Source of the DNA: Streptomyces sp. WZ-12
Lineage (GTDB): Bacteria > Actinomycetota > Actinomycetes > Streptomycetales > Streptomycetaceae
DNA: 64,000 nt
Direction: 5' to 3'
Assembly: GCF_028898845.1 (NCBI RefSeq)
Contig: NZ_CP118574.1
Location: forward strand, 5,181,001 to 5,245,000
Position 1 is the first letter of the stretch, and each line of letters begins with the position of its first letter. A program made the position numbers and the translations under genes. This document shows positions 10,992 through 14,833 of this stretch, piece by piece. The notes beneath the pieces are model-generated. The model was not told where the DNA came from and ran no database searches. It worked only from the letters and a program-made list of their open reading frames with translations.

Positions 10992-11213
10992 TCAGGGCAT
11001 GTGGTTGTCCATCGGCGTCACCTGCGCGTGGATCCGCTGAGAGGGCACCGGCATGTGATTGTCCTGCGGCGCCATGGGCGCGTGCGCGTCCTGGGCGGTG
11101 ACGACGGCCGGCGCACTGGGTATGTGGTTGTCGGCCATGGCGGGCACCGCGGCGGTGCCGAGCGCGGCCGCGGTGAGGGCGGCGACGGCCAGGAATTCTC
11201 TCGTACGGTTCAT
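10992..11213 (-). CDS. AfsS-like DNHxP-repeat protein with a signal peptide
   Basis: ATG at 11213, preceded by GAGGAG at a good distance; the longer open frame upstream has no support. 73 residues: a clear Sec signal (NRTR then a hydrophobic core, residues 6-22) with a cleavage site after AMA (residue 27). The mature part of 46 residues begins with DNHIP and ends with DNHMP. It contains another DNHMP at 51-55 and a degenerate DAHAP at 42-46. The motif is the repeat of AfsS, whose gene lies next to it, but AfsS is cytoplasmic. This looks like an exported paralogue, perhaps a peptide signal or metal-binding peptide; function unknown. Palindromes ACTAGCGGCTAGT (11259-11271) and TCTGCGCAGA (11271-11280) lie in its leader. 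Confidence 0.75.
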   Translation of the reverse strand: MNRTREFLAVAALTAAALGTAAVPAMADNHIPSAPAVVTAQDAHAPMAPQDNHMPVPSQRIHAQVTPMDNHMP

Positions 11214-11458
11214 TCCAACTCCTCGGAATAATAGGGGCGTTGCTGTTCCCGGAAACAAACTAGCGGCTAGTCTGCGCAGACGTTCGACGCTTGTGAGGGA
11301 AAGCGGTCGAATGTCGTGGGTTTTTACTATCCGGTCGGGAAACGCCGCAGGGGCCGAACTTCCATGGCTTCCCCTCCAAGCCACGGAAGACGACCCCTGC
11401 GATCCCCCGGATCCCCCCGGTTGTGCTCCCCCGTATTCCCCCGTCGGTTCAGTGGGTC

Positions 11459-11677
11459 TTACTTGGGCTCACCGAGCGGCTGGTGGTTGTCCTCGGTGGT
11501 GATACCCGTCGCGGCGATGGGCTGGTGGTTGTCCATCGGCTTGACGATGTCCCGCTCACCGGGCTTCTTCTTTTTCGCTCTCGGGGTCACACCCGGCGCG
11601 ATGATGGGCTGGTGGTTGTCCATCGGCCGGATGGCATCCCGTTCGGCGGTCACCTGGGCCTTGTTGTCGGTGCTCAC
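11459..11677 (-). CDS. afsS: AfsS, small sigma-like activator with three DNHQP repeats
   Basis: GTG at 11677 preceded by AGGAG nine bases away; an upstream start at 11770 is not supported. 72 residues, with three repeats centred on DNHQP at 20-24, 49-53 and 63-67. The first two are in longer units (ERDxIxPMDNHQPI). A lysine-rich spacer (KKKK) separates repeats one and two. Known: AfsS lies directly downstream of afsR in S. coelicolor, is a small protein with such repeats, and its induction by phosphorylated AfsR triggers antibiotic production; its biochemical mechanism is unsettled. The same gene order is seen here, with a direct-repeat site at 11847-11866 in the intergenic region. Confidence 0.85.
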   Translation of the reverse strand: MSTDNKAQVTAERDAIRPMDNHQPIIAPGVTPRAKKKKPGERDIVKPMDNHQPIAATGITTEDNHQPLGEPK

Positions 11678-11846: not shown

Positions 11847-11866
11847 CGATGAACGATCGATAAACG
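11847..11866 (-). promoter_or_regulatory. Predicted AfsR (SARP) box of the afsS promoter
   Basis: Read on the minus strand: CGTTTATCG, two bases, CGTTCATCG, i.e. direct repeats with 11-bp spacing, the SARP arrangement. An AT-rich TCTTAACAG follows about 11 bases downstream. The second repeat also resembles a PHO-box unit, and AfsR and PhoP are known to overlap at the S. coelicolor afsS promoter. Confidence 0.65.
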
Positions 11867-11893
11867 ACGACGTTGGGGAGATGCGGCGGCGGT

Positions 11894-14833
11894 TTACGCG
11901 ACCGCGGCAGGGGTGAGAAGCGCCTGCACAGCGCCCCCTTCGGGGGATCCCAGGCGCTCGAAGATGGCCAGGGATTCCTGCCAGCACACCCGCGCCCGAC
12001 CGACGTGCCCGAGCGCGTGCAGGGCCCGGCCCAGGGCGGTCAGGAAGGTCGCCCGCCAGGAGTCGCCGCCGATGCCGCGCAGCGCCGTCAGGGCCTGCTC
12101 GGCGCGGTTGGCGGCACTGGCCGGCCGGCCGCCGGCCAGATCGACCTCGGCGAGCCGGAAGTTGGTCATCGCCTCCCAGAACCGCTGGCGGCTGTCCTTG
12201 AAGATGGCCAGCGCGTCGGTCAGTTGCTGGTTGGCCTCCTCCAACCGCATCGCCTCGGTGTACGCCAGGGCGAGCGCGTACATGCCGTTGGCGAGCCGGC
12301 GCCTGGCGCCCAACTCGCGGTAGATGGCGATGCCCTGTTGTGCCAGTTGGATGGCGCTGTCGACCCGCCCGGTGGCCAGGTGCACCCGGGAGAGGTTGCA
12401 CAGGGCGCTGGCTTCGGACTGCCGGTTGTCGTCGTCGTGGAAGGCGGCCAGGGCCTGCCGCAGGTACCCCTCGGCGTCGCTGTGCCGGCCCTGGGCGTTG
12501 GCGATGATGCCGCGGTCGTTCGGCGCGTACGAGCAGGTGAACGCGTCCTCGGTGGCGAGGCCCAACAGCATGGCGGACTTGGCGTTCTCGTCCGCCTCGT
12601 CCAGCCGGCCGGTCAGGGTGCGCACATAGGTCAGGGCGAGGTGGAGACGGGCCTCGGCGTGCTGGTTCCCGAGCTCCCGGGCGGCCTTCAGCAGGGCGAT
12701 GCTGGTCTGCTCGTACTGGAGGGCTTCGGCGCCGGACTCGGCGAGGTCCTTGACGAGCAACAGCAGGTCGGCCGCGCCCCGGATCGCGGCGGGGCCGCTG
12801 GACTGGCGGGCGCAGGAGAGCAGGCACCCCGCCTCGATGAACAGCCACTCCAGGGCCAGGGCCCGGTCCTGGAAGTCGAGTCCGGGGTAGTTGGTGCGCT
12901 CCATGTGCGCGATCAACCGGTCGCCGGGGCGCTCCAGCGCGTACATCCGGGCGGCCGTCGCCAAGTAGAAGTCCAGCAACCGCGTCAGCGCCGCGTCCCG
13001 TTCGGACGGCGGGTGTTCGTCGCGTTCGGCGCAGGCGCGGGCGTAGAGGCGGACCAGGTCGTGGAAGCGGTAGCGGCCCGGTGCGGCGGACTCCAGGAGG
13101 GAGGTGTCGACGAGCGATTCGAGGAGTTCCTCGGTGGCGTCCGCGTCCAGGTCGAGCACGGCGGCCGCCGCCATCAGGGAGATGTCCGGGCCGTCGGCCA
13201 GGCCCAGCAGGCGGAAGGCGCGGGCCTGGGCGGGCTCCAGTTGTTTGTAGCCCAGTTCGAAGGTGGCCTTCACCGCCAGGTCGCCGGCGCGGAGTTCGTC
13301 GAGCCGGCGGCGCTCGTCGGCCAGCTTGGTGGCGAGCGTCGAGACCGTCCAGGTGCGGCGGGCGGCCAGCCGGGAGGCGGCGATGCGGATGGCCAGCGGG
13401 AGGAAGCCGCAGGCGCCGACGACGGCCATGGCGGCCTGTCGTTCGGAGGTGACCCGCTCCTCGCCGACGATGCGGGTGAAGAGGGTCAGCGCCTCCTCCG
13501 GGCTCATCACGTCGAGGTCGACCAGATGGGCCGAGGCCAGGTCGATCATCCGCGAGCGGCTGGTGATCAGCGCCGCGCAGCCCGCGGTGCCCGGCAGCAG
13601 TGGCCGGACCTGCGCCGCGTCCCGGGCGTTGTCCAGCAGGGCCAGGACCCGCCGGCCGGCAAGCGTGGAGCGGAAGAGGGCGGAGCGCTCCTCCAGGCCG
13701 TCGGGGATGGCCGAGTCGGCCGTCCCCAGGGCGCGCAGGAACGCGCCGAGCACCGCCTCCGGTTCGGCCGGCGTGTGCCCGGCGCCCTGGAGGTCCACGT
13801 ACAACTGCCCGTCCGGGAAGTGCTCCCGCGCGGCGTGCGCGACGTGCACCGCGAGCGTGGTCTTGCCGACGCCGCCGATGCCGGCGACCGCCGAGACCGC
13901 CATCACGCTGCCGTCCGCCGTCGCCAACTGGTCGCTGAGCTCCCTGACGAACGCGGTGCGGCCGGTGAAGTCGGCGACGGTGGCCGGGAGCTGGCGCGGG
14001 CGGACCAGGGTGGCCTCCAGCGCGTCCGGGCCGCCGGTGGGCGCCGGGGCGTCGAGCTCGGTGTCGGCCTGCAGGATGCGTTGGTGGAGCTCGGAGAGCG
14101 AGGCGCGGGGGTCCACGCCCAGCTCGTCGGCGAGCAGTTTGCGGGTGTCGGCGTAGACCGCGAGCGCCTCGGCCTGCCGGCCACTGCGGTACAGCGCCAG
14201 CATCAGCAGCTCCCGCAGCCGCTCGCGCAGCGGGTGCGCGGCGGTCAGCGCGGTGAGTTCGGAGACCGCCTCGGCGTGGTAGCCGGCCTCCAGGTCGAGG
14301 TCGAGGCGGTGCTCGGTGAGCGAGAGCCGCCACTCCTGGAGGCGGGTGCGCTGGTTCTCGGCGTACGGGCCGGGGACGCCGGCGAGCGGTTCGCCGTCCC
14401 ACAAGTCCAGGGCGGCGTCGAGCAGTTCGCGGGCCCGGTCGCGGTCCCCGGCGGCCTTGGCCTTCTCGGCGTCGGCGGCGTACTGCTCGGCGGTGTCGTG
14501 GTCGAGGTCCAGGGGCGTGCCGTTCACCGGCCGCAGGGCGTAGCCGCCGGACTCGCTGGCCAGCGCCTCCGCGTCGTCGCCGAGCGCCTTGCGGAGCCGG
14601 GAGGCGTAGGTGCGCAGCGCGGCGAGCGCGGCGTGCGGCGGTTCGTCGCCCCACAGGGCGTCGACGAGCTCGGGCGCGGTGGCGGTCCGCCCGCCGCGCA
14701 GCAGCAGCGCGGCGAGCAGGGCGCGCTGCTGCGGCGAACCCACCGCGAGCGACGACCCGCCGCGCCAGGCCCGCACGGGACCGAGCACGGTGAAGCGGAG
14801 CCGCTCCCGCACCTGTCCCGGACCGTCGTCCAT
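11894..14833 (-). CDS. afsR: AfsR, SARP-family regulator with NB-ARC and TPR domains
   Basis: About 979 residues from the ATG at 14833 (GGGGG at a good distance); an ATG at 14872 would add 13 residues. Order: OmpR-type winged helix (FTVLGPVRAWRGG...SPQQRALLAALLL, about 10-95), bacterial transcriptional activator domain (about 100-245), NB-ARC ATPase with the Walker A GIGGVGKTT (about 300), then TPR helices to the C-terminus. Length and layout match AfsR of S. coelicolor (993 residues), the substrate of AfsK. It binds DNA in response to Ser/Thr phosphorylation and drives afsS. Its stop lies 28 bases from the putative AfsR box in front of afsS. Confidence 0.88.
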   Translation of the reverse strand: MDDGPGQVRERLRFTVLGPVRAWRGGSSLAVGSPQQRALLAALLLRGGRTATAPELVDALWGDEPPHAALAALRTYASRLRKALGDDAEALASESGGYALRPVNGTPLDLDHDTAEQYAADAEKAKAAGDRDRARELLDAALDLWDGEPLAGVPGPYAENQRTRLQEWRLSLTEHRLDLDLEAGYHAEAVSELTALTAAHPLRERLRELLMLALYRSGRQAEALAVYADTRKLLADELGVDPRASLSELHQRILQADTELDAPAPTGGPDALEATLVRPRQLPATVADFTGRTAFVRELSDQLATADGSVMAVSAVAGIGGVGKTTLAVHVAHAAREHFPDGQLYVDLQGAGHTPAEPEAVLGAFLRALGTADSAIPDGLEERSALFRSTLAGRRVLALLDNARDAAQVRPLLPGTAGCAALITSRSRMIDLASAHLVDLDVMSPEEALTLFTRIVGEERVTSERQAAMAVVGACGFLPLAIRIAASRLAARRTWTVSTLATKLADERRRLDELRAGDLAVKATFELGYKQLEPAQARAFRLLGLADGPDISLMAAAAVLDLDADATEELLESLVDTSLLESAAPGRYRFHDLVRLYARACAERDEHPPSERDAALTRLLDFYLATAARMYALERPGDRLIAHMERTNYPGLDFQDRALALEWLFIEAGCLLSCARQSSGPAAIRGAADLLLLVKDLAESGAEALQYEQTSIALLKAARELGNQHAEARLHLALTYVRTLTGRLDEADENAKSAMLLGLATEDAFTCSYAPNDRGIIANAQGRHSDAEGYLRQALAAFHDDDNRQSEASALCNLSRVHLATGRVDSAIQLAQQGIAIYRELGARRRLANGMYALALAYTEAMRLEEANQQLTDALAIFKDSRQRFWEAMTNFRLAEVDLAGGRPASAANRAEQALTALRGIGGDSWRATFLTALGRALHALGHVGRARVCWQESLAIFERLGSPEGGAVQALLTPAAVA

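Follow-up and report, generated by a model that had tools for sequence, protein, structure and literature searches.

An Exported AfsS-Like Peptide Gene Next to afsS, and Co-Variation Suggesting That the AfsR Sensor Reads the AfsS Motif

Introduction

Why would a Streptomyces genome that encodes AfsS beside afsR also encode, directly after it, an exported protein bearing almost the same repeat? Both AfsR and AfsS have long been known as global switches of antibiotic production. In the sections of PMC10936776 at hand, the input of the AfsR sensor and the function of AfsS are presented as open questions and inducer binding to the sensor as unsettled, while AfsR is kept inactive by its C-terminal domains and requires ATP. 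The accessible part of PMC2267785 describes AfsS as a protein of 63 residues with three repeats believed to be crucial to its activity, and an extract of a review (PMC6988585) has it work by DNA binding 5' of the act and red regulators.

The locus lies in a window (the whole 64,000-nucleotide stretch of DNA from Streptomyces sp. WZ-12 that was analyzed) on which an earlier note had proposed that the exported protein might tie the AfsK/AfsR switch to the outside. Our data point to the AfsR sensor domain for such a link.

Results

A Second Gene with an AfsS-Type Repeat and an Export Signal

On the (-) strand of the window, afsR is followed by an afsS-type gene and then by the exported gene (Table 1). 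The claims of the earlier note about this arrangement were borne out: the ORF, its translation and a signal-only HMM all identify a second gene with an AfsS-type repeat and an AxA signal beside afsS, and afsS (72 aa) and the exported gene (73 aa) stand in tandem on the same strand 3' of afsR. The translation reads MNRTREFLAVAALTAAALGTAAVPAMA followed, after a cut behind AMA, by DNHIPSAPAVVTAQDAHAPMAPQDNHMPVPSQRIHAQVTPMDNHMP and the stop; as the note had said, the mature part of 46 residues begins and ends with the motif (first DNHIP, last DNHMP). The signal call was based on the basic n-region, the hydrophobic core and the AxA site, combined with a signal-peptide HMM from whose seed the motif was excluded; the window's signal peptide scores 39.2 bits against this HMM, being itself one of its 21 seed rows. 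Residues P24, A25 and A27 of the signal are invariant across 18 aligned members. From these features, the exported protein was judged to have a Sec-type signal with a predicted cleavage between AVPAMA and D.

Table 1. Features of the afsR-afsS locus in the window (positions are those of the window)
Feature	Position	Strand	Basis
Exported AfsS-like peptide gene, 73 aa	10992..11213	(-)	ORF and translation, relatives, family in other genomes
Signal peptide, residues 1-27 (MNRTRE... AVPAMA)	11133..11213	(-)	Sequence features and signal-only HMM
Motif copy DNHIP, mature N-terminus	11118..11132	(-)	Sequence
Degenerate motif copy DAHAP	11076..11090	(-)	Sequence
Motif copy DNHMP	11049..11063	(-)	Sequence
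Motif copy DNHMP, C-terminal	10995..11009	(-)	Sequence
TCGAAC element, 5' of exported gene	11282..11287	(-)	Found in 18 of 51 upstream regions; function putative
TAGTTT, -10-like hexamer 3' of TCGAAC element	11257-11262	(-)	Sequence
afsS-type gene, GTG start, 72 aa	11459..11677	(-)	ORF and translation; below NF053616 cut-off
afsS DNHQP copies, three	11606-11620, 11519-11533, 11477-11491	(-)	Sequence
11-bp direct repeat GTCGTTTATCG/ATCGTTCATCG, afs-box-like, 5' of afsS	11847..11868	(-)	Direct-repeat scan
afsR, SARP-NOD-arm-TPR, 992 aa	11894..14872	(-)	Genome matches and PDB match
AfsR arm and TPR sensor, residues 620-992, candidate motif receptor	11897..13015	(-)	Co-variation, model, fold neighbors

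The exported gene starts 245 bp past the afsS stop codon and has its own ribosome-binding site, GAGGAGTTGGAATG. Across exported-gene upstream regions, TCGAAC is present in 18 of 51, compared to a mean of 1.4 and a maximum of 5 after shuffling. An AfsR-type direct repeat 5' of the exported gene was sought, with a null result, in 12 loci (exported start listed for 10); three of these ten gave a candidate, and the three were rejected as resembling GC-rich noise. The 11-bp direct repeat 5' of afsS, compared with the afs box architecture given in the available portion of PMC10936776, is a putative AfsR site.

AfsR itself is readily recognized, with full-length matches in 101 of 101 Streptomyces genomes (E <= 1e-180). 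Its N-terminus aligns with SARP-NOD AfsR and its C-terminal part matches PDB entries of AfsR (8k60/8jke, E about 5e-114), so that all the domains of a STAND SARP (SARP, NOD, arm and TPR) are found in the window's protein; their borders follow the excerpt of PMC10936776. Recognition of the two small proteins is less direct. Pfam returned no family for either, with one weak match (E 0.044) under the cut-off. NF053616, the NCBI model of AfsS, scores the window's afsS product at 25.1 bits and matches the repeat of the exported protein at 30.5 bits, half its 60-bit cut-off. We use the name AfsS for the window's gene on the strength of position and repeat, because the score in the curated model lies far under the cut-off. 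As a detector of AfsS in the window's clade, NF053616 was discarded, having matched in five of 21 genomes and exceeded the cut-off in two of them.

Exported AfsS Twins Are Genus-Wide but Patchy

Among about 5.8 billion proteins searched, five relatives were found, with 93, 84, 70, 58 and 46% identity; they come from S. noursei, S. albospinus, S. sioyaensis and two further Streptomyces. The earlier note had proposed looking for such genes beside afsR/afsS in other Streptomyces, and they were found there: of 100 Streptomyces genomes sampled evenly, 28 have a comparable gene, with signal peptide and motif copies, 3' of afsS, as do 37 of 80 named loci, giving 62 distinct genomes after removal of three duplicates. 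The set of 100 consists of the DNA 3' of afsR from 99 genomes plus the window; G028, whose AfsR is cut at a contig end, was left out, six of the 99 stretches are shortened by contig ends (149 to 2561 bases), and several of the 80 named loci stop soon after afsS. Exported genes were accepted through a signal-peptide rule or the signal-only HMM. One acceptance pass additionally required the signal to be followed by H or N; G021 was accepted only through another, looser pattern that likewise required H or N.

In the remaining 72 of the 100 genomes, afsS is present with no exported gene in the stretch read; among them, G007, G020, G049, G063 and G067 have AfsS proteins of the NNAMP, NNSMP or DNAMP type. 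Because it is missing from the searched stretch in these 72 genomes, the exported gene is not essential to AfsR/AfsS. The family is thus a genus-wide but patchy set of exported AfsS twins.

The exported-family profile, of which the window's protein is itself a member, gives this protein an E value of 1.6e-25 and a protein from another species 3.7e-22; the former is the single strong copy in the window's own genome, where the next match is at 1.4e-3. These values, the distribution over loci and a ribosome-binding context conserved among the exported genes make it hardly credible that the repeat arose by chance in some other kind of secreted protein or that the ORF is spurious, even though four clade members display no clear third-position excess (e.g., 19/10/19) and purifying selection is not clearly shown. 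For counting, the profile was rejected, as several members found by the signal rule (e.g., G006 and G018) escaped it and matches to the signal alone came in. When 101 genomes were searched with a single sequence at E <= 1, 98 gave matches, mostly by chance, and only the strongest served as leads.

Several loci depart from the usual arrangement. Two exported relatives lie away from the afsR found in their genomes: G081:C468:51657-51821(-) (locus L003), with DNHQT- and ERHQT-like copies, between helicase-like and Fpg-like genes, and G097:C408:5598-5771(-) (locus L004). In L072 (G051), two consecutive exported genes follow one afsS, at about 800-1070 and 1740-2056 after afsR, with the words DDHGG/DDHSG and DDHST. 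A second AfsR-like gene occurs within a few kb of afsR in G058, G069, G096, G055, G047 and G050. Finally, G091:C1:4084718-4084879(+) is an exported-family match with an internal stop, possibly decayed, and was excluded from the counts.

The Exported Motif Tracks the AfsS Motif of the Same Genome

The earlier note had taken DNHxP as the fixed repeat of AfsS, a view that did not survive comparison of genomes, which show, e.g., DNHAS, DQHAT, NVHAT, NNAMP and DSNRP. The AfsS repeat is instead a lineage-variable five-residue word, mostly identical among the copies within one protein; DNHQP, DSHMP, EGHTP, DDHVT, DNYGT and many others were also seen. The exported protein follows these changes. AfsS/exported pairs include DDHVT/DDHST, NAHVT/NGHVT, DVHAT/DIHAT, DGHTT/DGHTY, NRHGT/NRHGA, DHYAS/DHYSS and DNYGT/DNWGT, and in 50 of 58 pairs at least 4 of the 5 residues agree in the best own-genome match. 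The observed mean match was not reached in any of 100,000 permutations, whichever of three levels of thinning was applied; the repeat is related to that of AfsS beyond chance, as the note had supposed. The eight other pairs (L231, G031, G040, G070, G021, L196, L204 and L215) match at just 2 or 3 of 5. The 58 pairs and some of the AfsS motifs were curated by hand, and G090, L178, L209 and L214, which have a single AfsS motif copy, were left out of the 62 genomes; by reading, their best matches are 3, 3, 3 and 4 of 5, respectively. We regard a real family with motif tracking as practically certain.

Tracking might reflect history rather than function, if the exported gene were a duplicated AfsS repeat joined to a signal peptide, with the match maintained by ancestry or gene conversion and no common receptor. 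Similar text precedes the motif in both proteins (TPMD, KPMD, TPQD), and cross-genome matches rise with AfsR identity, from 0.47 of pairs at 80-90% to 0.82 above 90%, both of which would fit such an origin. Among 16 distant lineages (AfsR <74% identical), however, 15 own pairs match at 4 or 5 of 5 residues, compared to 0.5 expected. Moreover, the two genes change in parallel while keeping a difference. AfsS and exported words are DSNRP/DNNRP in S. rimosus and DSHRP/DNHRP in S. monomycini, position 3 being N in both genes of the former and H in both genes of the latter, with S/N retained at position 2. Likewise, in S. natalensis (DKHMP/DRHMP), S. sioyaensis (DKHRP/DRHRP) and Streptomyces sp. 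CB02959 (DKHAP/DRHAP), position 4 shifts in both genes and K/R is kept at position 2. Conversion tracts would hardly spare a difference at position 2 when both genes change at position 3 or 4, and this pattern argues for a common reader of the word and against gene conversion. We consider duplication or conversion without a common receptor quite unlikely.

Exact identity to the AfsS word was found for one of 147 exported copies, which are usually one residue apart from it. Identity is equally rare when the AfsS words come from different genomes (13 of 334 close matches; Fisher p 1.0), and an obligatory one-residue difference as a rule for own pairs is therefore not supported.

An N-terminal x-x-His (ATCUN) arrangement can bind copper or nickel. 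In the window the mature peptide starts with DNH, and many members have x-x-H there, in line with a secreted metal-binding peptide, one of two roles that the earlier note had offered. Yet the exported motifs of S. rimosus, Streptomyces sp. CB02923, G036 (DNNRP) and S. hainanensis (DNWGT) track AfsS without His, and cytoplasmic AfsS carries the motif internally. As tracking persists after loss of His (S. rimosus, S. hainanensis), a metal-binding role is very improbable, and the other role, that of a signal, is the favored reading.

AfsS Words Co-Vary with the AfsR Sensor

A common reader of the word might be AfsR. Across 119 genomes, the AfsS word tends to change where the AfsR arm and TPR sensor change, and shows hardly any such link with SARP and NOD. 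In a distance-matched test on 1,367 related pairs, the 40 columns scoring highest for word changes of any kind included none in residues 1-620, and in a branch-based test on an N-terminal tree, mean z was about 0.1-0.5 over AfsR residues 1-620 compared to 1.4-3.3 over residues 621-992. Position 3 of the word showed no difference between domains (p 0.29).

Such co-variation could also arise from physical linkage, if recombination exchanged, as one block, the 3' end of afsR, afsS and the exported gene. We therefore ran a second test with tree and clock built from the C-terminal part of AfsR alone, which absorbs linkage and bursts. Most of the general excess disappeared, as linkage would have it, and the sensor excess for position 5 nearly vanished (p 0.1). 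Nevertheless, single columns on A-type TPR helices persisted at z 5.3-6.4, namely K708 (z 5.5) and D786 (5.3), assigned to position 2, and M902 (6.4), assigned with N792 to position 5. The top columns for position 4 were weak under the C-terminal tree and included one NOD residue. In addition, co-variation steps up near the NOD/arm boundary and peaks at residues 745-806, with no rise to the 3' end, and co-varying columns favor A- over B-type TPR helices (19 to 11, background 83 to 103; one-sided p 0.02). Linkage as the source of the association is accordingly improbable.

The residue combinations are specific, with the caveat that the counts include relatives and are not independent. Residue 708 is K or R in 63 of 64 cases with N, S or D at position 2, L or I in 10 of 10 with Q and L in six of six with K; residue 786 is D in six of six cases with K at position 2, and with D it is N or I in six of six and acidic in none of six. 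At position 5, T accompanies M902 in 44 of 47 cases and S accompanies V in 16 of 18, and Q at position 4 accompanies N792 in 15 of 16.

For a held-out test, 40 further AfsR proteins were used, of which G032 was dropped (AfsS motif not resolved), leaving 39 genomes. Rules derived from the first set were applied to these. From position 2, residue 786 was predicted correctly in 30 of 39 (majority guess 15); from position 5, residue 902 was correct in 29 (22) and residue 928 in 38 (30). The exact residue at 708 was correct in 24 (18) and its class in 29 (18), and residue 792 in 28 (27). AfsR 833, tried as the partner of position 4, failed, with 18 right compared to a majority guess of 20, and was rejected. 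Of 20,000 shuffles, which ignore relatedness, the observed value was reached by none for 786, 902, 928 and 708, by one for 792 and by 6740 for 833; by this measure, five of the six chosen column pairs beat shuffling. The co-variation is statistical evidence, at the level of sequence, for a candidate ligand motif of AfsR, and we consider it likely that the AfsR sensor reads the AfsS motif. A DNA-binding AfsS and AfsS as an AfsR ligand could both hold.

Where the exported peptide differs from AfsS, its fit to the sensor of its own AfsR is mixed. The position 2 residue fits better than random (174 and 49 of 5,000), the position 4 residue is neutral (1452 of 5,000) and the position 5 residue fits AfsR 902 worse than random (4915 of 5,000). 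Given this mixed fit, the exported form may be a ligand that is weaker than AfsS or counteracts it. The misfit at position 5 to the AfsR pocket seen by AfsS can alternatively be taken to mean that the exported peptide stays outside the cell and acts there on a different receptor, such as a membrane kinase, AfsK, another sensor or a cell-envelope protein, with tracking arising from a related ligand pocket or from AfsS binding that receptor too. Its export signal would suit such a receptor, re-entry into the cell being a presumed step. On the other hand, the AfsS motif, which the exported peptide tracks, co-varies with columns of the AfsR sensor, and we consider action on another receptor unlikely.

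The AfsR Sensor Resembles Peptide-Binding and Other TPR Domains

An AlphaFold model of AfsR residues 600-992 (pLDDT 92.3) superposes on Rap, NprR, AimR, PlcR and MalT, the first four being among the 50 best in VIA-align, as are the TPRs of LGN and APC/C; the TPRs of LGN, APC/C and APPBP2 superpose about as well as Rap. A sequence match of AfsR to RapJ has an E value of 7.8e-5. Compared with the RRNPP pairs RapF-PhrF, RapJ-PhrC, phi3T Rap with RGHTS, NprR-NprX, PlcR-PapR and AimR, the AfsR system shares a sensor that the model predicts to be a TPR domain of the peptide-binding type and, in the 28 genomes and 37 loci above, an adjacent gene for an exported pre-peptide. RRNPP proteins are defined by an HTH or Rap-type effector domain at the N-terminus. 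AfsR has SARP and NOD in place of such domains, and its system also includes a cytoplasmic protein, AfsS, with a motif of identical type. Because the effector domains differ, we do not file the system under RRNPP, although it may work like Rap-Phr pairs, with short mature peptides and their import as presumed parts of the analogy. MalT, as portrayed in the available extracts on STAND regulators, senses maltotriose, whereas a peptide is proposed here for AfsR.

As for the exported protein, its nearest known likeness is AfsS (AfsR2), with which it shares the short repeated motif, the afsR neighbor and the repeat match to NF053616, and from which it differs by the export signal, by a motif usually one residue off and by a score below that model's cut-off. 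RiPP precursors are likewise small and repeat-bearing, but the Sec-type signal sets the exported protein apart from them. The open-access literature, which did not contradict the note's statement that it knew of no described secreted AfsS-like protein, yielded nothing on such a protein or on AfsR as a peptide receptor; subscription journals were mostly outside this search.

Discussion

Based on these results, we suggest that AfsR is a peptide-sensing STAND regulator, with AfsS as its internal ligand and an exported near-identical version beside it. The motif would be the ligand of the arm/TPR sensor, and AfsS, produced under AfsR control, would offer several copies of it within the cell. The exported pre-peptide carries the pentapeptide motif of the neighboring AfsS, one residue off; it would be cleaved from its signal and probably trimmed to short motif peptides. 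As a self-secreted signal, it might return most simply via an oligopeptide permease and bind the same groove of AfsR as the AfsS motif. AfsR, a STAND switch holding itself off by its C-terminal domains, would then integrate internal and external copies of the ligand, the exported form playing either an activating or an antagonizing role. We regard this explanation as a whole as evenly poised between right and wrong. Action of the exported peptide on AfsR as a pheromone is a serious possibility, though a shade short of even, and we put forward tentatively the broader picture of AfsR as a receptor with two neighbor-made ligands, the exported near-copy being a fast-diversifying, strain-specific pheromone through which antibiotics answer to kin.

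The co-variation names a candidate ligand motif and single pocket residues, so that synthetic pentapeptides can be used to test both the input of the AfsR sensor and the function of AfsS. If AfsR does have two ligands, each Streptomyces lineage would have its own five-residue word. And if the exported copy is a pheromone, secondary metabolism in Streptomyces would be under peptide-based, strain-specific control, and synthetic motif peptides could serve as simple probes of silent antibiotic clusters.
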